From assembly GCA_003021175.1 (NCBI GenBank), contig PXQV01000012.1, forward strand, positions 117,671-181,670: a stretch of 64,000 bases of DNA, written 5' to 3'. The translations under genes were made by a program, and so were the position numbers. Every line of letters starts with the position of its first letter. The first letter of the stretch is position 1. Shown here piece after piece: positions 776 through 62,926 of this stretch. The DNA comes from Halobacteriales archaeon QH_7_66_36. Lineage in GTDB: Archaea > Halobacteriota > Halobacteria > Halobacteriales > Haloarculaceae. Under the pieces are notes generated by a model. That model did not search any database, was not told the origin of the DNA, and saw only the letters and a program-made list of their open reading frames with translations.

Positions 776-789
776 CGCTTCGTGATGGA

Positions 790-998
790 TAGCGTTCGGG
801 TAAGGCTGACTTCGGAGATTGGGAGGCCAACAGGGTGTAGAAAGCCCCCAGGCGCTGCGGTCGCGCGCCTCGCTGCGCTCCTTGCTCACTGCGTTCGCTG
901 CGGTGCTTGCGTCGTCGGGCTTCCCGCAGTGCCCGCCCCTTTCAATCCCACCCACCATGGTTTCTCGGTCGAGCAGCGACCCGATTGTCCGAACACTA
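790..998 (-). repeat. R2 element, copy A1
   Basis: Intergenic repeat read on the minus strand. It starts at GAACACTA (991-998) and ends at TAGCGTTCGGG (790-800), giving inverted ends. It carries the GGGATTGAAAGGGGC box (near 935-950) and the GGGGGCTTTCTACA box (near 836-849). The sequences next to these boxes (about CGGGCACTGCGG and CCGCAGCGCCTG) pair with one wobble and one mismatch. It fills most of the 440-bp gap between two convergent genes. Confidence 0.75.
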
Positions 999-1010
999 CC
1001 CCATGATGGG

Positions 1011-1215
1011 CGTGTTTGGTGAGCGATTACTGGCGAGAGAACCGCTCGGGGTGGGACTGGAAGGGGCTGTGCGCTCGACGAAGCGCGCCGATATAAGGAC
1101 CGCACCGCGAGCGAAGCGAGCGGGAGGACCGCAACGAGGCGCGCGAGTCGAGCGTGCAGGGGCTTCCAAAACCGTCGCCGCTCCGTTCACAACGGCTCCA
1201 AGACTTCACTAAACG
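1011..1215 (+). repeat. R2 element, copy A2 (head-to-head with A1)
   Basis: Second R2 copy, in the opposite orientation and 12 bp from A1. It begins GTGTTTGG, has GGGACTGGAAGGGGC near 1052-1067 and GGGGCTTCC near 1158-1166, and ends CTAAACG directly at the stop codon of the next gene. Arms 1067-1079 and 1147-1159 pair over 13 positions, two of them G-U, which suggests an RNA-type stem. It resembles copy G at 42.3 kb most closely, including a shared 3' extension. Confidence 0.75.
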
Positions 1216-2541
1216 TTATCCCGTGATGCGGACGAGCACGTCGTCGCGCTCCAGCGGGAACTCGCCGTCGGCACGGCCATCGCGGTTCGACGTGATCGCG
1301 TACAGCGCGCCGTCGGGTCCCTGTTCGAGGTGGCGCACGCGGCCGAGCGTCTCGGTCAACAGGTCGTGGCTCGTCACGGTGAGCTCGCCGTCGAGCCAGT
1401 CGGCGTCGTGGCGCGTCCCCGTCTCGCCGAGCGGCGGCATCTCGCCATCGCGCGTGAGCGTGAACGCCTTCACGCGCTGGCTGGCGAGAGTGCCGACGAG
1501 ATAGCGGCTGGCGAGCGCGTCGACTGCGCCGGTGTAGAACACCGATCCCGACGGCGCCCACACGGTCTCCTCGACCGCACTGCTGGCGATCGGCCGCTGA
1601 TAGTCGGTGCCGGGGTACTCCTCCGGTTCGCGGGCGTCGGGCCAGCCGTAGTCGCCGCCGGCGGTGAGTCGGTTCACCTCGTCCGGGCCGGGGCCGTGCT
1701 CGTCGATGACCGGCGTCGCGTCCGGGAGCCAGTCGATCCCCTGCGGGTTGCGGTGGCCCATCGTGTACACCTCGCTCGCCACGAAGCCGGGATTGTCCGG
1801 CGCGGGGTCGCCCTCGGGCGTGAGACGGAGCACCTTCCCGGCCAGCGACCCGGGATCGGCCGCGAGCGCCTTCTCGGCGCTGTCGCCGGTCGTCACCCAG
1901 AGATAGTTCGCCGGGCCGAAGGTGATCCGCCCGCCGTTGTGGATATTGGACGCGGGCGTCTCCAGCAGCGTCTTCGTGTGTCGGCCGGGGTCGTCGGCGC
2001 TCGTGTCGAAGTACGCCAGCCGATTGCGACGCTCGCCGTCGACGGTGACCGTGTAGTAGACGTAGACGAGCGGCGGGTCGGGGTACTCAGGGTGGACGGC
2101 GACGCCCATCGTCCCGCCTTCCCCGCCCTGCACGAACCACGAACTCTCGTCGCTTCCGGGCGGGACCGAGTCGGCGTCGATTGCACCGCGTGGCTCCGTC
2201 GCGTCGACCACCTCGCCCTCGGCGAGACGGAGCACGCGGCCCGTCCGCTCGGTCAGAAACGCCTCGCCGTTCGCGGCGAAGGAGATGTCCCACGGAATTT
2301 CGAGATTCTCGACGAGCACCTCCACCTCGTAGCTCCCTTCTGGATTCGGCGTCGGCGCGGTCCACTCGGGGTCGTAGCCGTCCCACGTCGTGGCGTCGTG
2401 GGTGAGACTCGTGTCGTAGGTAGGCGTCGTCGCCGTCGGCGTGGGGCTTTCGGTGTCGGTAGACCTGACCGACGCACTGCTACAGCCAGCGAAGCCGATG
2501 GCCGCGAGGCCGAGCGCCTCGCGGCGCGTAAGCCGTCGCAT
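1216..2541 (-). CDS. PQQ-type glucose/sorbosone dehydrogenase family lipoprotein
   Basis: 441 residues. The N-terminus has a twin-arginine-like MRRLTRREAL, a short hydrophobic stretch and a lipobox ending at C20 (GFAGC), followed by a Ser/Thr/Pro-rich linker, so the mature protein is probably anchored outside the membrane. The remainder reads as the six-bladed GSDH beta-propeller, with family signatures such as IHNGGRITFGP and GGDYGWPD. Members oxidise aldose sugars with PQQ or have unknown substrates, and the substrate here cannot be read from sequence. The stop codon abuts R2 copy A2. Confidence 0.85.
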   Translation of the reverse strand: MRRLTRREALGLAAIGFAGCSSASVRSTDTESPTPTATTPTYDTSLTHDATTWDGYDPEWTAPTPNPEGSYEVEVLVENLEIPWDISFAANGEAFLTERTGRVLRLAEGEVVDATEPRGAIDADSVPPGSDESSWFVQGGEGGTMGVAVHPEYPDPPLVYVYYTVTVDGERRNRLAYFDTSADDPGRHTKTLLETPASNIHNGGRITFGPANYLWVTTGDSAEKALAADPGSLAGKVLRLTPEGDPAPDNPGFVASEVYTMGHRNPQGIDWLPDATPVIDEHGPGPDEVNRLTAGGDYGWPDAREPEEYPGTDYQRPIASSAVEETVWAPSGSVFYTGAVDALASRYLVGTLASQRVKAFTLTRDGEMPPLGETGTRHDADWLDGELTVTSHDLLTETLGRVRHLEQGPDGALYAITSNRDGRADGEFPLERDDVLVRITG

Positions 2542-3627: not shown

Positions 3628-5019
3628 TCACTCGTTCGGTTGCTCCCGGGCGTAGTAGGAGTCCTCCTTCGTGTCGTCCGCGACGCCGTGACGGACGCGA
3701 ACGCTGTAGTGTTCGAGTACGTCGCGGCCGAGCAGGACATCGTGGGAGAGGTGGCTCCGGTCACGGACGTTCACCTCCAGTTGGTGCGTGTAGTCGCCGA
3801 TCCGAACGTCGACGGGGACGATGGGTCGCGGACTCGAATCGTCGCCCCCCTTCACTTCCTTGGTGTCGAGGATGGGACCCGCGCCGACCTCGCCCGCGAG
3901 TTCGAGGTCGATACTCGTCCGAGTCGCGCCCGTATCCGCCTTCGCGACGACCGTCTTCGCGCCGTCGTTACCGGCGATCCGCACCTCTTCCGTGTAGCCG
4001 ATGACCGCCTGCTCTGGCTCCGGCGACCGGTCGAGGTCGGGTTTGCACGCCGGTACGCTGTCGTCGAGCCGGGTGGCTAGCTCGGCGACGCGCTCCGGCT
4101 CGACAACGCCGCCGGCACGCTCGATGGCGAGCTTCGCGATGTGTGGGGCCGGGCTGATTCCGGTGGCGTCGAAGAAGCCCTTGAATCCAGCGGTGACGTT
4201 CACCTCCAACACGTACCAGCCGTCGACGCCCTCGATGATGTCGACGCCGGCCACGTCCAACCCGAGCGTGTCGGTGGCGTCGCGCGCGAGTTCGAGCACC
4301 TCGTCGGGGAGCGCCTCCGTGGCGGCGCGCACGCGACCGCCACGGGCGACGTTCGTTCGCCAGTCGTCGTCGGGGGCGTGTCGCCGCATCGCGCCGATCA
4401 CCTCGCCGCCGACGACGTAGACGCGCACGTCTTCGTGGCCGTCGGCGGGCGTCTCGACGAGTTCCTGTATCAGTCCCTGTGCCTCCGACCGAAGTTGTGG
4501 GGCGTCGCCGCCGGGGTTCAGCAGGCGGGTCGCGTCGCCGTGGGTGCCGACGGGGTGTTTGAACACGCGGGTCCCGGCGCTCGTCGCGAGCGAGAACGCC
4601 GGGGGGTCGCGGTCTGCCTCGTCGGCCGGCACCGCGAGTTCCTCGATGCGGTTGGCACCGATTCGGAGCGCCGTCGCCGGAACCGGATGGCCGGCCTCCG
4701 CGAGGTGGGCGGCCGCGGCGAACTTGTGGGTAGCCGTCGCCACTGCCTCCGCCGGGTTCACGACCGGTGTGCCCGCGGCGACCGCCGAGACGAGTCCCAG
4801 CGCGGTCAGCGGTCGCTCGGTCGACGGGAGCAACAGTCGGTTCACCACCACGTCGACATCGGGGAGCAGGTCGGCACCCCCGGCCGTCGCGGTCAGGGCG
4901 AGGTTCTCCGCCCTGAGCCACCGCGGCCGGTGGCCGAGGTCGGCGACTGCGTTACAGATGGCCTTCGTCTCCTTGCTGTTGTGGAGACTCAACACCCCGA
5001 CTCGAACCTCGTCACTCAT
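3628..5019 (-). CDS. RimK-type ATP-grasp ligase fused to a RimB-like retropepsin-fold domain
   Basis: 463 residues from the ATG at 5019 (MSDEVRVG); an ATG eight codons upstream is less likely. Residues ~1-310 are a RimK/LysX ATP-grasp ligase: pre-ATP-grasp region, nucleotide-binding RVFKHPVGTHGDATRLL, and Mg2+-binding GWYVLEVNVTAGFKGF. After a linker, residues ~335-463 resemble the ATP-dependent zinc protease (RimB, DUF785) family, with a retropepsin-like DTGA at about residue 362 and LLGRDVLEHY. RimK-type enzymes add amino acids such as glutamate to protein or carrier C-termini, and RimB domains act on the product. Having both on one chain suggests a coupled modification system whose target is unknown. 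Confidence 0.85.
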   Translation of the reverse strand: MSDEVRVGVLSLHNSKETKAICNAVADLGHRPRWLRAENLALTATAGGADLLPDVDVVVNRLLLPSTERPLTALGLVSAVAAGTPVVNPAEAVATATHKFAAAAHLAEAGHPVPATALRIGANRIEELAVPADEADRDPPAFSLATSAGTRVFKHPVGTHGDATRLLNPGGDAPQLRSEAQGLIQELVETPADGHEDVRVYVVGGEVIGAMRRHAPDDDWRTNVARGGRVRAATEALPDEVLELARDATDTLGLDVAGVDIIEGVDGWYVLEVNVTAGFKGFFDATGISPAPHIAKLAIERAGGVVEPERVAELATRLDDSVPACKPDLDRSPEPEQAVIGYTEEVRIAGNDGAKTVVAKADTGATRTSIDLELAGEVGAGPILDTKEVKGGDDSSPRPIVPVDVRIGDYTHQLEVNVRDRSHLSHDVLLGRDVLEHYSVRVRHGVADDTKEDSYYAREQPNE

Positions 5020-5145
5020 CGTTCTCCCCACGCCGTACAGCACCTTCCGATGGAAGAGCGAGTATCGTCCGTCTCACGCTTCGACACACCACTACACCGC
5101 GTTGCACACGGCCGCACACTTCAGCCTTCGGACGTGGGAAAAGGT

Positions 5146-5236
5146 GGTGTTCGGATGGGAGACGACTGCCCGAGCACGGGCGGGACTGGAAGGGTCGGTG
5201 TGCGCGGCTTCGCGCTCGCCGAACCCAATGGCGAGA
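5146..5236 (+). repeat. R2 element, copy F (truncated)
   Basis: Starts TGGTGTTCGGAT and carries GGGACTGGAAGGG near 5182-5194. It then runs into a GC-rich stretch and ends at the 3' end of the ThiR-type gene without the GGGGGCTTTC box. It lies between two genes read on the minus strand. Confidence 0.6.
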
Positions 5237-6133
5237 CTAAACCAGCCGGCGAGCGGTCTCTGCGACCGTCACGGCGTCGGCACCGAGCAGATACGCGACC
5301 GGCTCGACGCCGAAGCCGCCGGTCTGGTAAACGACATCGGCTCCCGGTCGTGCGTCGACGGTGGCTCGAACGGCCGCTTCGACCGGGTCGTCGGCGTCGA
5401 ACTCCGCGGCCGACAGCCCCGCGTCCGCGAACGCGTCGACCATCCCGTCGTCACAGCGCACGTTGAGCGCGGCGTGTGCGTCACTGCCGCTCGCCTGCGC
5501 CGCGAGCAGCACGCTCGCGACGTGTTCGGAGACGCCGAACTCCGGGCCGTTCGGCACCGTCGCCTGCCCCTTCACGTCGAGGATTCGGCCCGGCACGCCC
5601 GCCACGTCGTCGATGCCGTCGGCGTCGGGGAGCGCCTCGACGAGATTCGACCCGACCGCGGGGATCAGCGTCGCGAAGCCGCTCGTGGTCTCCAGCGTGC
5701 GCACGCCCCGACGGACGGACGCGAGCACGCGCTCGGCCGTCCGCACCGGCGAGTCGGCGTCGTGGACCGCGAAGTCACCCTCGTAGGCAGCCAGCGGCGG
5801 AAACGCCTCCTCGTGGAGCCGCGCGAGGAGGTCGCCTCGCTCCAGTCGGCGGATCAACACCTCTGTCTCCACGAGCGCCTGCACGGGCGTCATGTCGCCG
5901 GTCGCGAGACCCTCGGCGAGACGCGCGACGAGGTCCTGCAGTCGGTCGTCCTCGGCGAGTCGGTCCGTCGTCTCCACCTCGCCGTGGGCGTACTTCGAGA
6001 CGGCGCTCTGTGAGATGCCGAGCAGGTCGGCCACCTCGCTCTGGGTCAGTCCCCGGTCGCGCAGTTCGGCCGCGAGGAGCGCCCGGAACGTCGGGAGGAA
6101 CTCGTCGACGACCACCTCCTCGACGAACTTCAC
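5237..6133 (-). CDS. thiR: ThiR-type transcriptional regulator: HTH fused to ThiN-like domain
   Basis: 298 residues with a GTG start. The N-terminal ~70 residues form a helix-turn-helix (GLTQSEVADLLGISQSAVSKYAHGE). The C-terminal ~170 residues resemble the thiamine-phosphate synthase domain ThiN (GRILDVKGQATVPNGPEFGVSEH, DADDPVEAAVRAT). This HTH-ThiN layout is that of archaeal thiamine-pathway repressors that use the ThiN domain as a thiamine-phosphate sensor. No thiamine gene lies next to it here, so the targets must be elsewhere. The start codon lies inside a 68-bp tandem repeat, which makes the exact start less certain. Confidence 0.8.
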   Translation of the reverse strand: MKFVEEVVVDEFLPTFRALLAAELRDRGLTQSEVADLLGISQSAVSKYAHGEVETTDRLAEDDRLQDLVARLAEGLATGDMTPVQALVETEVLIRRLERGDLLARLHEEAFPPLAAYEGDFAVHDADSPVRTAERVLASVRRGVRTLETTSGFATLIPAVGSNLVEALPDADGIDDVAGVPGRILDVKGQATVPNGPEFGVSEHVASVLLAAQASGSDAHAALNVRCDDGMVDAFADAGLSAAEFDADDPVEAAVRATVDARPGADVVYQTGGFGVEPVAYLLGADAVTVAETARRLV

Positions 6134-6288
6134 TGGTCACCACCGAACCCACTCGCTCGTTGCCGAGTATCGCCGGTCTCGCGTGGCTCGATACGGCTCA
6201 CTGGTCGCCACCGACCTCACTCGTTCGCTGCCGAGTATCGCCGGCCTCGCGCGGCTCGGCACGGCTCACTGGTCGCCACCGAACTCTC
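6131..6288. repeat. 68-bp tandem repeat between dcd and thiR
   Basis: Two full copies (6131-6198 and 6199-6266) and a partial third from 6267, each starting CACTGGTC(G/A)CCACCGA and differing by a few bases. The first copy contains the thiR start codon and the third overlaps the dcd stop codon, so the repeat also encodes the GGDQ tail of dCTP deaminase. It looks like a local duplication of the dcd 3' end. Confidence 0.85.
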
Positions 6289-11446: not shown

Positions 11447-11583
11447 CGATCTGACTGCGCGCGGTCGGAGCGAAAAAGTAGCGGTCGTCCCAGCACACCG
11501 AACCGCGAGCGAACGAAGTGAGCGAGCGGTAGCGCGCACGGACTAACGCGAACCGACTGAAGGGAGGTTCGCGGCAGGAGTCC

Positions 11584-11657
11584 GCGCATATTTTCCCCAG
11601 GTTTTTGCCGGCAGCGAGGCGACTGCGTCGCCTCGGCCCGTGCAAAAAGTGGGTTTA
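11584..11657 (-). repeat. R1 stop-codon-flanking element, pdxS copy
   Basis: Read on the minus strand it begins with the pdxS stop codon: TAAACCCACTTTTTGCACGG, then a perfect 9+3+9 hairpin (11614-11634, loop TGC on the plus strand), then AAAAACCTGGGGAAAATATG. The archaemetzincin gene at 61.8 kb has the same arrangement. Position and hairpin suggest a 3' end or terminator role, which is inference. Confidence 0.8.
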
Positions 11658-15077: not shown

Positions 15078-15129
15078 ACGGGCGGAACGACACGGCCGGG
15101 CACTAAAAGGTTCACTCCGCCTCGGAGAG

Positions 15130-15334
15130 CAGTATTGACGTAAAAGCAACTCAGTTGGATTAGTCAGCAACAAGATGTAGAAAGCCCCCGCGCGCTCGAC
15201 CGTCCGGGCCTCGCTGCGCTCCTCGCTCACTACGTTCGCTGCGGTGCTTGCGTCGTCCGGGATGGATCGAGCGCGCGGCCCCTTTCAGTCCCGTCCCGTG
15301 GACTGATCGGTGGGCCATTCCTCATCTGAACATC
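15130..15334 (-). repeat. R2 element, copy B
   Basis: Minus-strand R2 copy with ends GATGTTCA and TCAATACTG (imperfect). The GGGACTGAAAGGGGC and GGGGGCTTTCTACATC boxes are both intact. Arms 15188-15199 and 15267-15278 pair perfectly over 12 bp and differ in sequence from the corresponding arms in other copies. It sits between uspA and crtB, which are divergent. Confidence 0.78.
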
Positions 15335-15614
15335 GCCGCCTCAAAAAGTGACTCTCGCACGGTCGGGGACAGCGCGGGCAGTTCGATTATCGCCCGAGCA
15401 GCGCTATCGGAGGAGCTGTCAGCCAGAAGACTTGACGCGTCAATCGTTTCGGCTCGCTCGCCGAATCGGTGTCGATTCGACGCGGCTGGAACGTTCGAGG
15501 CGATGATATATCCACGCTGACGGGCCGCTCGCGTCCGGCGACCGCCCGGTTGTCGATCCGGAGAGGTACACCATCGAGCGTCACCTCGGAGACGAGTGTA
15601 CCTGCCGACGCGAG
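15335..15614. other. non-coding stretch upstream of crtB
   Basis: About 280 bp with no convincing gene; the open frames here lack family features. It contains a second TATA-like sequence (GATGATATATCC, near 15500-15511) besides the one next to crtB, so there may be two promoters or an unannotated small RNA. Confidence 0.4.
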
Positions 15615-19953: not shown

Positions 19954-20022
19954 ACACACCGGTAGGGGTTGACGCGTCGAAAACCCACCGGTAGCGTGAA
20001 TTCACCATCCTGTTGCGTGGGC

Positions 20023-20168
20023 GGTGTTCAGATACGCGATGGCCGACTGAACAAGTGCGGTCGGGCGGGACTGGAAGGGGCTGGCGGCTCGACGAACCCG
20101 GCCGACGTAAGGACCGCAGGCCAACGGCCGAGGACCGCAGCGAGGCCCGGGAGTCGATATCTAAACAC
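20023..20168 (+). repeat. R2 element, copy E
   Basis: Begins GGTGTTCAGATACGCGATGG, has GGGACTGGAAGGGGC near 20064-20078, and ends CTAAACAC. The GGGGGCTTTC box is lost. It fills most of the divergent gap between crtD and the SDR gene, with a repeated AGGACCGCA motif inside. Confidence 0.68.
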
Positions 20169-20224
20169 GACCCGTCACATGCCGAGGGAGAAACGGCCTT
20201 CCGACAGCCGACCGAACGCGGCGT

Positions 20225-42240: not shown

Positions 42241-42257
42241 CGTCGCAGCACAGTGGC

Positions 42258-42620
42258 GGTGTTTGACTAAGCGATTGCTGGCGAGGGACCCGCTCGGGAG
42301 GACTGGAAGGGGCTGTGCGTGCGCGGCGGCTGCGCCGCCGCGACCATTCGAGGCCGGCGAAGCCGGCCTCGCACTCGACGACGACGGGCGTTCGGAAGAC
42401 GCGGAGCGTCTTCCGCAGCCCAGCAGCAATCGAAGATTTCTGCGGACGACGCAAGCAGTGAGGTGACGGAGCCACCTCGGGCCGCTCGCGCGGTGCAACC
42501 GCGCGAGGACACCGCAGGCCGACGGCCGAGGACCGCAGCGAGCTCATCGAGTCGAGCGTGCAGGGGCTTCCAAACTCCTCGCTGCTCCGGTCACCGCAAC
42601 TCCAAGACGTCAGTAAACAG
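42258..42620 (+). repeat. R2 element, copy G, with inserted hairpin modules
   Basis: Begins GGTGTTTGACTAAGCGATT and ends GTAAACAG, with GGACTGGAAGGGGC near 42301-42314 and GGGGCTTCC near 42562-42570. It is about 160 bp longer than the similar copy A2. The extra sequence carries perfect triloop hairpins: 42322-42342 (loop TGC), 42349-42371 (GAA), 42393-42415 (GGA), 42485-42507 (GCA). It lies between convergent cofG and cofH. Confidence 0.72.
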
Positions 42621-42649
42621 CACCAGCCCGGTCACTACGCGGGGAATTA

Positions 42650-44023: not shown

Positions 44024-44076
44024 GTGTGTTCCTGTCCGCTCCGGAAACAAAACCGTGCCGGGTGGCGGCAAGGCGG

Positions 44077-44288
44077 CAGTGTTCAGCCAAGAGTGACTCC
44101 GGGGATTAGGATGGCAACACAGTGCAGAAAGCCCCCGGGCGCTACGGTCGCGCGGCTCGCTGCGCGCCTCGCCCTCTCTTCGGTCGGGCTGCGGTGCTTG
44201 CGTCGCCGGGCTTCCCGTACCGACCGGCCCCTTTCAGTCCCACCCAGCACGGGTTTTGGCCGAACGACGACCCATTATTTGAACACTG
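44077..44288 (-). repeat. R2 element, copy C
   Basis: Best-bounded long copy. Its ends are perfect 9-bp inverted repeats, CAGTGTTCA (44077-44085) and TGAACACTG (44280-44288). Minus strand carries GGGACTGAAAGGGGC and GGGGGCTTTCTGCAC. The arms next to these boxes have yet another sequence and pair imperfectly. It lies 12 bp from copy D in head-to-head orientation. Confidence 0.8.
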
Positions 44289-44300
44289 TCCTCTCCCCGG

Positions 44301-44450
44301 TAGTGTTCGGAGAAGCGATGGCTGACCGAGCACGGGCGGGTGGGACTGGAAGGGGTCGGTGCGCGGCGGCTGCGCCGCCGCGACCAGTCGAGGCCGGTCC
44401 AAACTCGTCACACTAGCTGTGGCGACTCATACAGACTTACTTGAACACTA
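44301..44450 (+). repeat. R2 element, copy D (short)
   Basis: 150 bp between perfect ends TAGTGTTC (44301-44308) and GAACACTA (44443-44450). It keeps GGGACTGGAAGGGG and a 9+3+9 hairpin (44362-44382, loop TGC) but has lost the GGGGGCTTTC half. The hairpin is identical to one in copy G. No target-site duplication is evident. Confidence 0.75.
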
Positions 44451-44499
44451 TCAGTGAGGCCGCGCGAAGTTTCAAGCGCGTCGAACCCTGACGAAGGGT

Positions 44500-46370: not shown

Positions 46371-47606
46371 TCAAGACGCATACGTTCCGAGCGTCGCTTG
46401 CTGGACTTCAGCATCGGCTTGGCCGTCTTGTGGCGCGGTCAAACGCGCCCCATCCTCAGCCGAGTCATCGTCGTTCGGGTGTTCTCTGGAACGACTCTCT
46501 CCGCTGAGGTAGCGGTCTGCGATGTTCACCGCTCCGTTCACGTCCGCCTGATACTCGCCTACCCAACAAGCGTCGTTCGTACACTTGAACGTCGCCTGTT
46601 GCGGACGATACCCTACCTCACCGCAAGCGTGGCATTCTTTCGACGTGTTTCGGGGATTCATCGTCTCGACAGGGATACCCTTCTCGACTGCCTTGTAGCG
46701 TATCTGCGCGTGGAGTTTGGCGAACCCCCATCCGTGGAGGCGGCGGTTTATATACTCGCCGTAGTCCATCGACTCCCGTATGTACGTCAGGTCTTCCAGA
46801 ACGAGAACGGGATTCTCGACAGATTCGGCGTATTCCACGACTTCGCGAGTGACGTGGTGGAACACGTCGTCTATCTGGTTCCACAGGTCGTCGAACGACT
46901 CTGCGATACGCTCGCTACCGCGCTTCTGAAGCCGTCTCGTGGCGGTGAAGTAGGTCTTGCGAAGCCGACGAACAGTCTTACCATCGTCGGCCCACAGTTC
47001 GGGAGCGGTCGGAGACCCGTGGTCGTCGCGGTGACACACCGTGACGAGCGACGCTTCTCCAATATCGATACCGATGGGCATCCGTTCCTCGGCGGACGCC
47101 TCGGAACCGTTCTCTACGTTGCGGGTGGCGGTAACGTGGAGGAACCACGTTCCGTCCCGCTCAAACAGCCGACTCTCGCCCATGTCCGCGTCGCCAGCGT
47201 TCAACGCCTCGAGCCAGCCCCGCTGTTCGGGGTTCGGCTGTGCTGGCATCCAGAGGTGGTAGTCCTCGTGGTGCGGAACCTTGACGTACCACTCGATAGC
47301 GTTCTCGGGTTTGTGGTCGAGCCGTAGCCCCTCGTTCGTGAACCGAACAGGGTGGTTGTCGTGAAGTTCACCCGCGTTGTACGTCGTCGTCAACTGTGGG
47401 ACGTACTTCTTGAGCGCGTTCTTCGCGTACCCGCTCAGGTCGTAGCTGACCACCACGTCGTTCGCTTCGGTCTGCGTGGTACATCGGGCGTCGAAGGCAT
47501 CGTGAAGGGCGGTCTGGTACACCTCTCGCGTCTCACAGAGTTTCCTCCGCTTGTGCGCGTTCGGCTCCACCAGTTTCAGTTCCAGCGTCTTCGTGAGTTC
47601 GGTCAC
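46371..47606 (-). CDS. tnpB: TnpB RNA-guided endonuclease
   Basis: 411 residues, full-length and open. RuvC-like catalytic residues are present: D181 (GIDIGEAS), E271 (VLVLEDLTYIRES), D355 (YQADVNGAVNIADRY). A four-Cys zinc finger (C325, C328, C342, C347; CHACGEVGYRPQ then CTNDACWVG) lies between the last two. It should cut DNA with the guide from the element's right end. Overlaps the tnpA relic by 4 bp, so the original pair was translationally coupled. Confidence 0.92.
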   Translation of the reverse strand: MTELTKTLELKLVEPNAHKRRKLCETREVYQTALHDAFDARCTTQTEANDVVVSYDLSGYAKNALKKYVPQLTTTYNAGELHDNHPVRFTNEGLRLDHKPENAIEWYVKVPHHEDYHLWMPAQPNPEQRGWLEALNAGDADMGESRLFERDGTWFLHVTATRNVENGSEASAEERMPIGIDIGEASLVTVCHRDDHGSPTAPELWADDGKTVRRLRKTYFTATRRLQKRGSERIAESFDDLWNQIDDVFHHVTREVVEYAESVENPVLVLEDLTYIRESMDYGEYINRRLHGWGFAKLHAQIRYKAVEKGIPVETMNPRNTSKECHACGEVGYRPQQATFKCTNDACWVGEYQADVNGAVNIADRYLSGESRSREHPNDDDSAEDGARLTAPQDGQADAEVQQATLGTYAS

Positions 47607-48043
47607 GAATCGTCTTCCTCATGGCGCTGGATGTAGTTCGTGACCGTCTCGCTGGATACGTGGCCCGCCGTTCCTGCGTAGTAGCCTCTCGCCCATGGAA
47701 TCTTCTCGCCGTCGTGGTCGGCGTATCGGTGGTTGTATTTCCGCGAGGAAATCCCCTTGAACCAATTGGCGAGAAGTGACGGGGCGTGCTTCGGTGGGCT
47801 ACTGATGGACAGGTGAACGTGGTCGGGCTGTACGGTCAAGTCGAGTATTTCGAGGCCCTTGTCGTCGGCTATTTCGTGGAGGATGGTTCGCACACGGTCC
47901 GCGACCTCGTTGACGAGTACCGATTGGCGGTACTGAGCGGAGCCTTGCTCCGCGATATCCGCAGAACCGACGGTTCTGCGAGACTTCGGCAACTACACTG
48001 TGTGGTAGTTGAGGTTGTAGGTCGCGTGCCGTGTGGTCTTCAT
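47603..48043 (-). pseudogene. tnpA: tnpA of IS200 type: nonsense codon plus 51-bp in-frame insertion
   Basis: From the ATG at 48043 it reads MKTTRHATYNLNYHT-V-stop-LPK, where relatives read YHIVWLPKYRQS: TGG has become TAG at 47993-47995. Directly after LPK, 51 bp (47933-47983, 17 codons) are inserted before YRQSVLV. Beyond that the Y1 transposase is intact, with the HUH motif DHVHLS and the Tyr in VTNYIQRH. The enzyme should be dead; the insertion alone would keep the frame. Confidence 0.85.
47933..47983 (-). repeat. 51-bp insert made of two triloop hairpins
   Basis: The insert is two perfect hairpins separated by GATATC: 47937-47953 (7+3+7, loop CTT on plus strand) and 47960-47980 (9+3+9, loop GAC). 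Its length is a multiple of three. The flanking tnpA sequence joins cleanly without it, so it is a true insertion into a coding sequence. Confidence 0.75.
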
Positions 48044-57086: not shown

Positions 57087-57135
57087 ACCCGCCGTTGGCG
57101 CTCCGACGACTAAAACCTCGGCGTGGGCGGTGAGG

Positions 57136-57552
57136 TAGTGTTCAGATACGCGGGTCGTCGCTCGGCTTCGCAACCGCGTCGGGTGGGACTGAAAGGGGCC
57201 GTTATCGGCGGCGGAGCCGCCGATTGCTCGGGAGAGCGTCGCTCTCCCGGTGGGCGCTACGGGAAGCCCGGCGACGCAAGCAGCGAGGGACCGGTGGTCC
57301 CTCGCTGTCGTCGGCGCGGAGCGCCGACTGCCCGAGGTGGGTGGGCGCTACGGGAAGCCCGGCGACGCAAGCAGCGAGGGACCGGAGGTCCCTCGCTGTC
57401 GTCGGCGCGGAGCGCCGACTGCCCGAGGTGGCTCCGCCACCTCGCCGCTTGCGTCGCCCGTCTTCGTCGAATGCGAGGCCGGCTCCGCCGGCCTCGAATG
57501 GTCGCGGCGGCACAGCCGCCGCGCACGCGCAGCCCCTTCCAGTCCCGCCCGC
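57136..57552 (+). repeat. R2 element, copy H, with triloop hairpin array and 91-bp duplication
   Basis: Starts TAGTGTTCAGATACGCGGG, with GGGACTGAAAGGGGCC near 57185-57200, and ends with an inverted GCCCCTTCCAGTCCCGCCC (57532-57550), so two elements meet tail to tail. Perfect hairpins: 57204-57224 (GGA), 57229-57249 (GTC), 57282-57306 (11+3+11, GGT), 57310-57328 (GGA), 57373-57397 (GGA), 57401-57419 (GGA), 57424-57444 (TCC), 57474-57496 (TCC), 57503-57523 (ACA). It fills the 606-bp gap upstream of the GTPase gene. Confidence 0.72.
57251..57432. repeat. 91-bp tandem duplication inside copy H
   Basis: Two units, from 57251 and from 57342, identical over about 90 bp except near their edges and in one hairpin loop (GGT at about 57293 against GGA at about 57384). 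A recent duplication within the hairpin array. Confidence 0.85.
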
Positions 57553-57692
57553 AGCAGTTGACCAACTTAGCATCGATGGTGGGACTTTCGAGATGTCTCC
57601 GGCCGTTCCACGAATGATTCAACGAAACCCAACCAGTACCGAGCTACGAGCGGACGGACGCGCTTATACGCGTCGGTGGTCAATCAGGTTCA

Positions 57693-61803: not shown

Positions 61804-61860
61804 ACCCACTTTTTGCACGGGGGCCGGAGGCCCCCGCCAAAAACTTGGGGAAAATATGCG
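61801..61860 (+). repeat. R1 stop-codon-flanking element, archaemetzincin copy
   Basis: Begins with the stop codon: TAAACCCACTTTTTGCACGG, then an 8+3+8 hairpin (61818-61836, loop GGA), then CAAAAACTTGGGGAAAATATG. The flanks match the pdxS copy closely while the hairpin arms are different. Confidence 0.8.
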
Positions 61861-62926
61861 TGACCCCCTCCAGTCGCGCGGGTCGCTTTGCTCACCGCGC
61901 GGTAGTCGTCGCCCGTCTCGAGAAACGCTCTGCGTTTCTCGCGGGCTGCACGAGAGCTTCGCTCTCGTGAACGCTACGGAACCTCGCTTCGCTCGGTTCC
62001 GCGAACCGCGTGGCTGCGGAGCCGCCACGGGATATGTTGCTGGCTGAGCCGGCAACCCGCTCGCTTGCTTCGTTCGCTCACGGAGAGTCGTCGAAATGCT
62101 TCGTAGGAAACGAGTTCTCGAATCGGGCGTCGCCTGCTGGCGAAGGGTGGTGGCTCGGGTGAACGCCTCGTCACACGGGGCTCGGAGGGGGTAACTCTCC
62201 TCATCGCCACCGGCCGATCCTCCGACGAGCGAGCCACTAAACGTTGCTACTCTGGTCGAGGAGAGGGACGACCGGCGTGCGGCCGTCGCGCCGGCGTCCG
62301 AGTACGGACGCACGATGAGCGAGCACCATGGCACAGCGGTGGTGGTGGTTCGGCCCTACCCGTGTCGAACCACCGTGAGCCGCCCCGACACGAAACCGCC
62401 GGTCGCACGCGGTGGGGGTGGTATGCGGCGCGCGACCGGAGCGGGCCACACCGGTTCTGCCGGCGTCGGGCTGGGGGGTGACGACCGACGCCGACGAATC
62501 GGCACCGTCGTTCGGCCCGCGGCCGCGGTCGGTTTCACTTCGGGACATACGACGGTATGCGCCGGAGCCGTCTGTGTCGTTCCCCGAACATGTTCGTCCC
62601 CACATGCAGGACGGACTGGTTACGAGAGCGTGGGCTACGGGGAGAACGTGTAGGGTGACCGGGCGAGGCGGGGGGTAGGGTAGGTGGGGGGTGAGTCGGC
62701 CGGTTTCGGCACAGGCCCGGTTCACGTCGCGTCCACCGACCGACTGGGCTGGGACGCCAACAAGGTGTACAAGCCACATCCGATTAAGAACGTCCCCTAA
62801 GCTGTTTGGGAACGAGGGTCATATTCGTCGCTGGCATCGAGCACACGGCGGATCGACGGCGAAGTAACTGGATCGGATCGGAGCATTCGCCTCCGAACCC
62901 CCGACACTTTGGGGACGACGGGAATC
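61861..62926. other. 1.1-kb stretch without a recognised gene; hairpins at its left
   Basis: Two perfect hairpins (61919-61941, loop TCT; 61949-61969, loop TTC) and two imperfect ones follow R1. A different stem with 9-bp arms and a 13-nt loop is at 62344-62374. The right half has runs of G and no family-like protein in either strand. A structured RNA or a decayed gene is possible. Confidence 0.45.

Follow-up and report, generated by a model that had tools for sequence, protein, structure and literature searches.

Miniature IS6-type elements of a haloarchaeal genome and the folded core that they carry

We propose, with moderate confidence, that the dispersed R2 repeats of the source genome are miniature IS6-family elements with a folded core that recurs across the class Halobacteria, and that this core serves, on one strand and probably as DNA, as a hairpin site of the REP/BIME or attC kind. 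R2 is mobile in the source genome and its closest relative, where copies have inserted with 8-bp target duplication. The family is described here from the window, which is the whole 64-kb stretch of DNA that was analysed, from the 2.6-Mb draft genome that contains it, and from other Halobacteria.

Copies, ends and mobility of the R2 family

The original prediction of about nine copies per 64 kb agrees with the 9-10 copies counted in the window. The box GGGACTGAAAGGGGC, allowing up to three mismatches, has 12 matches in the window compared with 1.83 +/- 1.39 in dinucleotide shuffles, and none of 100 shuffles reaches 12. The perfect inverted ends predicted for copies C and D were both confirmed. 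Copy C (44075-44290, minus strand) is bounded by the ends 44075-44089 and 44276-44290. Its folded core, at 44127-44241 on the minus strand (covariance model score 84.3 bits, E 2.5e-16), consists of a GAAAG/CTTTC closing helix, a GGG/GGG internal loop, variable arms and a conserved inner loop. Copy D (44299-44452, plus strand; ends 44299-44313 and 44438-44452) is without the 3′ box. Copy A (788-1000, minus strand) is complete, with ends at 788-802 and 986-1000 and a single core at 840-949 (77.8 bits). Copy B (1009-1220, plus strand) represents sub-type 2 with a GGAAG/CTTCC closing helix, and its core at 1053-1167 scores 84.8 bits. The flanks of copy A, TCGTGATG and CCATGATG, are alike at six of eight positions; the latter 8-bp flank is common to copies A and B, and the right flank of copy B is CCGTGATG (7/8). 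Judged from these letters, the three flanks around and between copies A and B would be one target in three versions.

Related copies were also found at the other predicted sites, although three of them proved to be truncated or composite. The copy at 5143-5240 (plus strand) contains the 5′ box and the left end only. The copy at 20020-20172 (plus strand; ends 20020-20034 and 20158-20172) is missing the 3′ half of the core when compared with its orthologous copy in the close relative G556. The third, at 57134-57560 (plus strand), is a composite of a sub-type 1 left half, with its end at 57134-57148 and its box at 57185, a module array and an inverted sub-type 2 right half, the sub-type 2 box of which lies at 57532-57546 on the minus strand. 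A 91-bp tandem duplication of hairpin modules, 99% identical, is located inside this copy at 57249-57430. The copy at 15127-15337 (minus strand) has a near-consensus core at 15180-15292 (91.3 bits), a right end at 15323-15337 and a degenerate opposite end. The copy at 42255-42624 (plus strand) is of sub-type 2, is enlarged by hairpin modules and is flanked by AGCACAGT and AGCCCGGT, alike at six of eight positions.

The draft genome contains 67 exact copies of GGGACTGAAAGGGGC, 36 on the plus and 31 on the minus strand, and no match to the reversed box used as a control. R2 is thus a real dispersed family with at least 67 copies in the source genome. The anatomy of the element was read from about 770 kb of additional sequence of the same genome and comprises, in order, GGYRGTGTTCAGATA, about 50 nt, GGTGGGACTGAAAGGGGC, a variable, GC-rich part ranging from 0 to about 400 nt, GGGGCTTTCTACA, a further 50 nt or so and TATCTGAACACTACC. 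The boxes of the second sub-type are GGGACTGGAAGGGGC and GGGGCTTCCAAA. The boxes change together in the two sub-types, GGGACTGAAAGGGGC with GGGGCTTTC(TACA) and GGGACTGGAAGGGGC with GGGGCTTCC(AAA), the latter seen for example at 1053-1167. Copies with both ends measure only about 125-500 bp and are too short for a transposase, in line with the original prediction that none lies inside. A search for an autonomous form, in which the two boxes would enclose a gene, gave only seven weak long-range partners, none of them convincing. The prediction that copies occur in every intergenic context was borne out in part: 91 of the 95 copies of the genome are intergenic, but only five lie between convergent genes, against 39 in divergent and 47 in tandem gaps. 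Convergent gaps account for 30 of the 225 intergenic gaps of at least 150 bp. Orientation relative to the neighbouring genes is unbiased in tandem gaps (26 vs 21) and shows no bias in other genera either; a role as UTR or attenuator was rejected on this ground.

The ends had been predicted as inverted and of AGTGTTC type. They are inverted, but the true ends are about 15 nt long (GGYRGTGTTCAGATA) and are accompanied by 8-bp target duplications. These ends, GGCGGTGTTCAGATA on the left and GGTAGTGTTCAGATA on the right, are identical to those of intact haloarchaeal IS6 elements, 698 bp in length, that encode a PF13610 transposase. The match covers about 15-16 nt and includes the difference between left and right that is present in most R2 copies; beyond the ends, no sequence common to R2 and the IS6 elements was seen. 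Three IS6 elements with PF13610 matches (L284, L285 and L288) are 698 bp long, have the ends GGCGGTGTTCAGATAA and [GC]GTAGTGTTCAGATAA and are flanked by 8/8 duplications. The inspected haloarchaeal IS6 elements of 696-698 bp have the ends GGCGGTGTTCAGATAA and GGTAGTGTTCAGATAA (or CGTAGTG...). The flanks of the 73 R2 copies with both ends were compared at duplication sizes of 4 to 12 and offsets of -6 to +6. Flank identity is 0.505 at 8 bp and offset 0, compared with 0.22-0.31 at other sizes and 0.25-0.31 at other offsets. Six of the 73 copies have perfect 8-bp duplications and eight have duplications matching at seven of eight positions. Members of the IS6 family have ends tipped by GG, contain a cTGTt motif and generate duplications of 8 bp (PMC7986276). 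R2 displays the features expected of an IS6 member, namely IS6-like inverted ends, the 8-bp duplication, a short length without transposase and insertion polymorphism, and it is well supported that the dispersed family of the window is a non-autonomous IS6-type MITE.

Since the ends are shared with IS6 elements, the copies would have been moved in trans by a PF13610-type transposase. No PF13610 transposase was found in the source genome; because this is a draft in 18 contigs, the IS6 source may have been lost or may be unassembled. PF13610 also has no match in G003, G011, G012 and G026, all of which contain many cores. A second group of haloarchaeal IS elements has GTGTTTAGTTAA ends. Ends of this kind (GTGTTTAGTTAAGCG) are found on the doublet element L222 of G050, with a perfect ATCGAGGA duplication on both sides.

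Insertion polymorphism between close strains was looked for and found. The genome G556, which is about 95% identical to the source genome, is without the copies at 42255-42624 and 44299-44452 and has other copies at shared sites; the first of these two copies is also absent from other species of the genus. The empty sites of the relatives have drifted and contain small extra differences, and the target duplication is only partly visible there, with no clean single target. The covariance model detects 72 copies in the source genome, 131 in G556, the assembly of which is incomplete, and 1-9 in four congeners, which implies a recent amplification in the branch of the source genome and G556.

The copies L021 and L022 occupy the same sites in G556, with flanks about 95% identical. 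The main helix of L022 differs between the two genomes yet pairs in both, being of the GGTCGAG type here and of the CGCAGCG type in G556. Likewise, the orthologous G556 copy of copy C has a different core interior. The simplest reading of these swaps is an exchange between dispersed copies via the conserved boxes, since the time available is too short for compensation at one position after another to be likely. In the hairpin modules, the loop orientation flips between GNA and TNC on common stems.

Several further features were noted in the window. A 1.6-kb segment at 3639-5234, containing a gene for a RimK-like ATP-grasp/aspartyl-protease protein and the truncated copy at 5143, is missing in G556, where about 8 bp lie between the joined flanks. 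A 68-bp tandem duplication (87% identical) is found at 6130-6265, and the G556 alignment breaks there. An IS200/IS605-type unit is located at 46371-47992 on the minus strand. It consists of a Y1 transposase gene (47603-47992, PF01797), the sole Y1 gene found in the genome, and an adjoining gene (46371-47606, minus strand) for a TnpB-like protein with a Cas12f1-like TNB domain. A 36-nt inverted pair at 11576-11611 and 61834-61869 is 83% alike and AT-rich for this genome (GCATATTTTCCCCAGGTTTTTG); it is possibly a shared promoter or operator.

The folded core and the strand that probably folds

The two inner boxes of the original prediction are indeed conserved; however, they are not separate motifs but pair with each other as the closing helix of a single core, GGGACTGAAAGGGGC...GGGGCTTTC, which is folded and about 105 nt long. 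The core, whose foot is GGGACT, is composed of the GAAAG/CTTTC closing helix, a GGG/GGG internal loop, a nearly sequence-free main helix of 11-13 bp, a second helix and a conserved, purine-rich inner loop. Additional GC hairpins have been inserted into the interior of the core.

Pairing of the arms was assessed in 85 cores from named Halobacteria by comparing a 12-nt stretch that begins with the final base of the 5′ box with its 12-nt counterpart at the 3′ box. The arms, which comprise 72 different sequences, pair at 94% of positions compared with 56.3 +/- 1.6% when they are swapped between copies. RNAalifold, applied to 63 sequences, predicts 24 pairs, 16 of which show double changes. In the 28-pair structure, 92.2% of the cells are paired against 71.8% in shuffled data, and every slid register stays at or below 50%. 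Double-change cells number 330 compared with 102 in shuffles, none of 500 shuffles being as high; the boxes are invariant in this covariation set because they are part of the search pattern. The closing helix itself was compared in 265 cores: GAAAG/CTTTC occurs in 236, GGAAG/CTTCC in 12 and CAAAG/CTTTG in nine, and the combination GGAAG/CTTTC in only two. The closing boxes of copy L208 are GAACGCCCC/GGGGCGTTC. The GGG/GGG internal loop between the closing and main helices is kept in 258 of the 265 cores. Compensatory change keeps the helices of the core. The search of Rfam gave no match at the gathering score, and a permissive search returned only miRNA models below threshold.

Two variants of the core were observed. 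The Haloarcula-type loci L093, L125, L132, L144, L145 and L148 have the same boxes and another interior, with CGCTGGCG arms and a GTCGCTGAGCGAC hairpin, and represent a distinct core class. At L062, L052, L078 and L110, the 3′ box and tail recur in partial form (e.g. GGGGCTTTCTGGCTGTT) downstream of complete cores, in a pattern resembling stepwise duplication of the tail.

In the main helix, GU wobbles (46-76) exceed AC mismatches (11-19) whichever cut-off is applied, with p at or below about 1e-5. Read from the opposite strand of a duplex or cruciform, a GU wobble is an AC mismatch; the excess of GU therefore indicates that the strand reading GGGACTGAAAGGGGC folds alone. RNA and single-stranded DNA both fit this excess. 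Triloops form 80 of the 135 terminal hairpins, with GNA in 46 and TNC in two. In hairpin modules with stems of at least 8, triloops number 42 of 64, 35 of these being GNA or TNC, against 365 of 3433 coding palindromes at a stem cut-off of 6, of which 51 are GNA or TNC; the triloop counts are partly dependent because the modules come in families. Triloop modules are also common in intergenic gaps free of the element. GNA loops form exceptionally stable DNA minihairpins (PMC4686876 and PMC6479982, citing Yoshizawa 1997). The GNA triloops, the random orientation relative to genes and the lack of a visible archaeal promoter in the GC-rich 50-90 nt before the core are suggestive of a DNA hairpin rather than RNA as the selected form.

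The opposite reading, in which transcripts of the core are the selected form, either as a dispersed sRNA family or as an RNA-protein recognition element, and the core was merely captured and amplified by IS6 ends in this lineage, is in our view unlikely. Deep covariation with GU over AC on one strand would be expected of a structured RNA, and so would the purine-rich inner loop kept across genera and the extra upstream domain found on the same strand in several genera. However, beside the indifference to gene orientation and the missing promoter, the loops are GNA triloops and not the GNRA or UUCG tetraloops of RNA, and no Rfam family corresponds to the core. We therefore retain the reading in which one strand, probably of DNA, would be selected for folding alone, as a hairpin formed during replication or strand exchange.

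Distribution of the core and its possible function

The exact box is present in 210 of 391 Halobacteria genomes. The covariance model R1 detected cores in 51 of the 59 sampled Halobacteria, several genomes having close to 68 among the matches listed, and none in about 164 other genomes of the phylum. The profile search of Halobacteria suggested in the original prediction thus revealed the core to be present, and not absent, in related genomes. In one core-bearing genus the box reads GGGACTCAAAGGGGC, which is why the exact box is mostly missing there. Core-like sequence also occurs on large haloarchaeal plasmids (50 records). Spread by viruses was considered and rejected: none of 16 exact 15-mer matches in viral contigs is a core by the covariance model.

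Elsewhere the core recurs in three forms: as a single core, as a head-to-head doublet (a reverse core, a spacer of about 25-35 bp and a forward core) and together with an upstream domain. This domain ends in GGCTGGGGAGG...TGCGGT...GGGT. At L196-L205 (G009) and L216-L221 (G042), long forms of about 200-330 nt were observed in which the core and a conserved upstream domain, GGTGGCGCGC...GCGAGGGACG...GGCTGGGGAGG, share one strand; neither a target duplication nor clear ends were identified for them.

IS6-like right ends accompany 32 of 50 cores of the source genome (control 1), compared with 14 of 132 cores of named-species loci (control 3), and IS6-like left ends within 330 bp number 13 vs 0. 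Most cores outside the source lineage are without IS6 ends. The rarity of such ends near the cores of named-species loci suggests that the core is wider than the IS6 MITE carrying it here, and it is probably older. The Y1 transposase (PF01797) is absent from the core-rich genomes G006, G009, G011, G015 and G026. In addition, the 1.5 kb around each of 30 Y1 genes contain no core, and a Y1/REPtron was rejected as the current driver for these reasons. As core-rich genomes lack PF13610 matches, Y1 matches or both, neither family alone explains the core class-wide. No transposase tracks the core, and no candidate recognition protein was found.

It has to be considered whether R2 is ordinary IS6-type MITE debris, with a functionless core whose pairing is kept by quasi-palindrome (hairpin-templated) correction and conversion between copies. 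The IS6 ends and duplications, the swapped interiors of orthologous copies in 95%-identical genomes and the GNA/TNC flips on common stems all fit this explanation. We regard it as decidedly unlikely, since non-palindromic parts are kept class-wide, namely the GGGAC box, the GGG/GGG loop, the inner loop and the three compensated states of the closing helix. Moreover, most carriers show no IS6 ends, and templated correction alone predicts no GU excess on one strand. Passengers of transposons are frequent, yet a structured core that compensatory change maintains in most sampled Halobacteria, and that reaches about 130 copies per genome, goes beyond ordinary debris. It is highly improbable that the core is a host-domesticated BIME-type duplex DNA element, such as a site for gyrase or a nucleoid protein, or an insulator that separates divergent promoters, because the GU/AC and GNA/TNC asymmetries of one strand are unexpected for a duplex or cruciform and the copy number varies from 1 to 131 among congeners, even though intergenic placement with few convergent sites, class-wide retention and independence of any single transposase would suit such a role.

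We thus favour the miniature IS6-family element with a hairpin-site core. Copies in the source genome and its closest relative have spread by insertion using the ends of haloarchaeal IS6-type (PF13610) elements. According to this proposal, their interiors would turn over through exchange between dispersed copies and hairpin-templated correction. The core would act like a REP/BIME or attC-type site, as a strand-specific hairpin recognised by a putative protein, and such recognition would explain its spread without one transposase. As a tentative extension, the core may be a strand-specific ssDNA hairpin module of Halobacteria that is mobilised or copied by a structure-reading protein, neither a Y1 nor an IS6 transposase, and that has repeatedly been packaged into IS6-type MITEs; it would then be an archaeal counterpart of REP and attC sites. 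Possibly, the core depends on loops rich in G, which the high potassium level inside haloarchaeal cells would favour.

The covariance model and the core can serve as a marker for a feature of many haloarchaeal genomes, which rides on IS6 MITEs in some lineages, is without IS6 ends in most and is described by no Rfam family. It becomes testable which protein reads the folded DNA (or RNA) module and whether this protein drives genome rearrangement. Natural pairs of orthologous sites with swapped interiors document how dispersed repeats of polyploid archaea undergo conversion.

Comparison with known systems

The original prediction stated that no described family has these features. This applies to the core, which matches no Rfam family, but not to the ends, which are of the described IS6 type with regard to their 16 nt, their asymmetry and the 8-bp duplication. 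A text search of the open-access literature found no paper containing GGGACTGAAAGGGGC, and the literature searched holds no description of this repeat or of a folded class-wide core. Haloarchaeal IS6 elements of 696-698 bp share with R2 the 16-nt ends, the difference between left and right and the 8-bp duplication, and differ in encoding a PF13610 transposase, which R2 does not. Two IS6-family MITEs of 227 and 336 bp have been described (PMC7986276), and ISfinder is reported to list the IS6-family MITE MITEHarch3 (PMC6807381). The latter, compared by name and size only, is an IS6-type MITE of similar size and haloarchaeal by name, and may belong to the same family as R2.

The REP/BIME/REPIN systems (TnpA-REP, Y1 HuH; PMC6006769) resemble R2 in their strand-specific hairpins, conserved 5′ foot, intergenic location, many copies and head-to-head doublets. 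In contrast to them, the R2 core is far longer, has GGGACT instead of the GT[AG]G foot and is without a linked Y1 transposase, and the R2 copies of the source genome carry DDE-type duplications.

The attC sites of integrons are single-strand hairpins with conserved paired ends, sequence-free complementary arms and a variable terminal part. The core shares the single-strand-hairpin layout with paired ends and free complementary arms; however, R2 copies occur singly or in pairs as doublets, with ordinary genes on either side, and no cassette arrays were seen. BOX and RUP of Streptococcus pneumoniae are modular, hairpin-rich intergenic repeats without transposase, and RUP uses IS ends. Both families are treated in PMC3049150. 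R2 is likewise modular and transposase-less, but is unrelated to them in sequence, host and type of ends.
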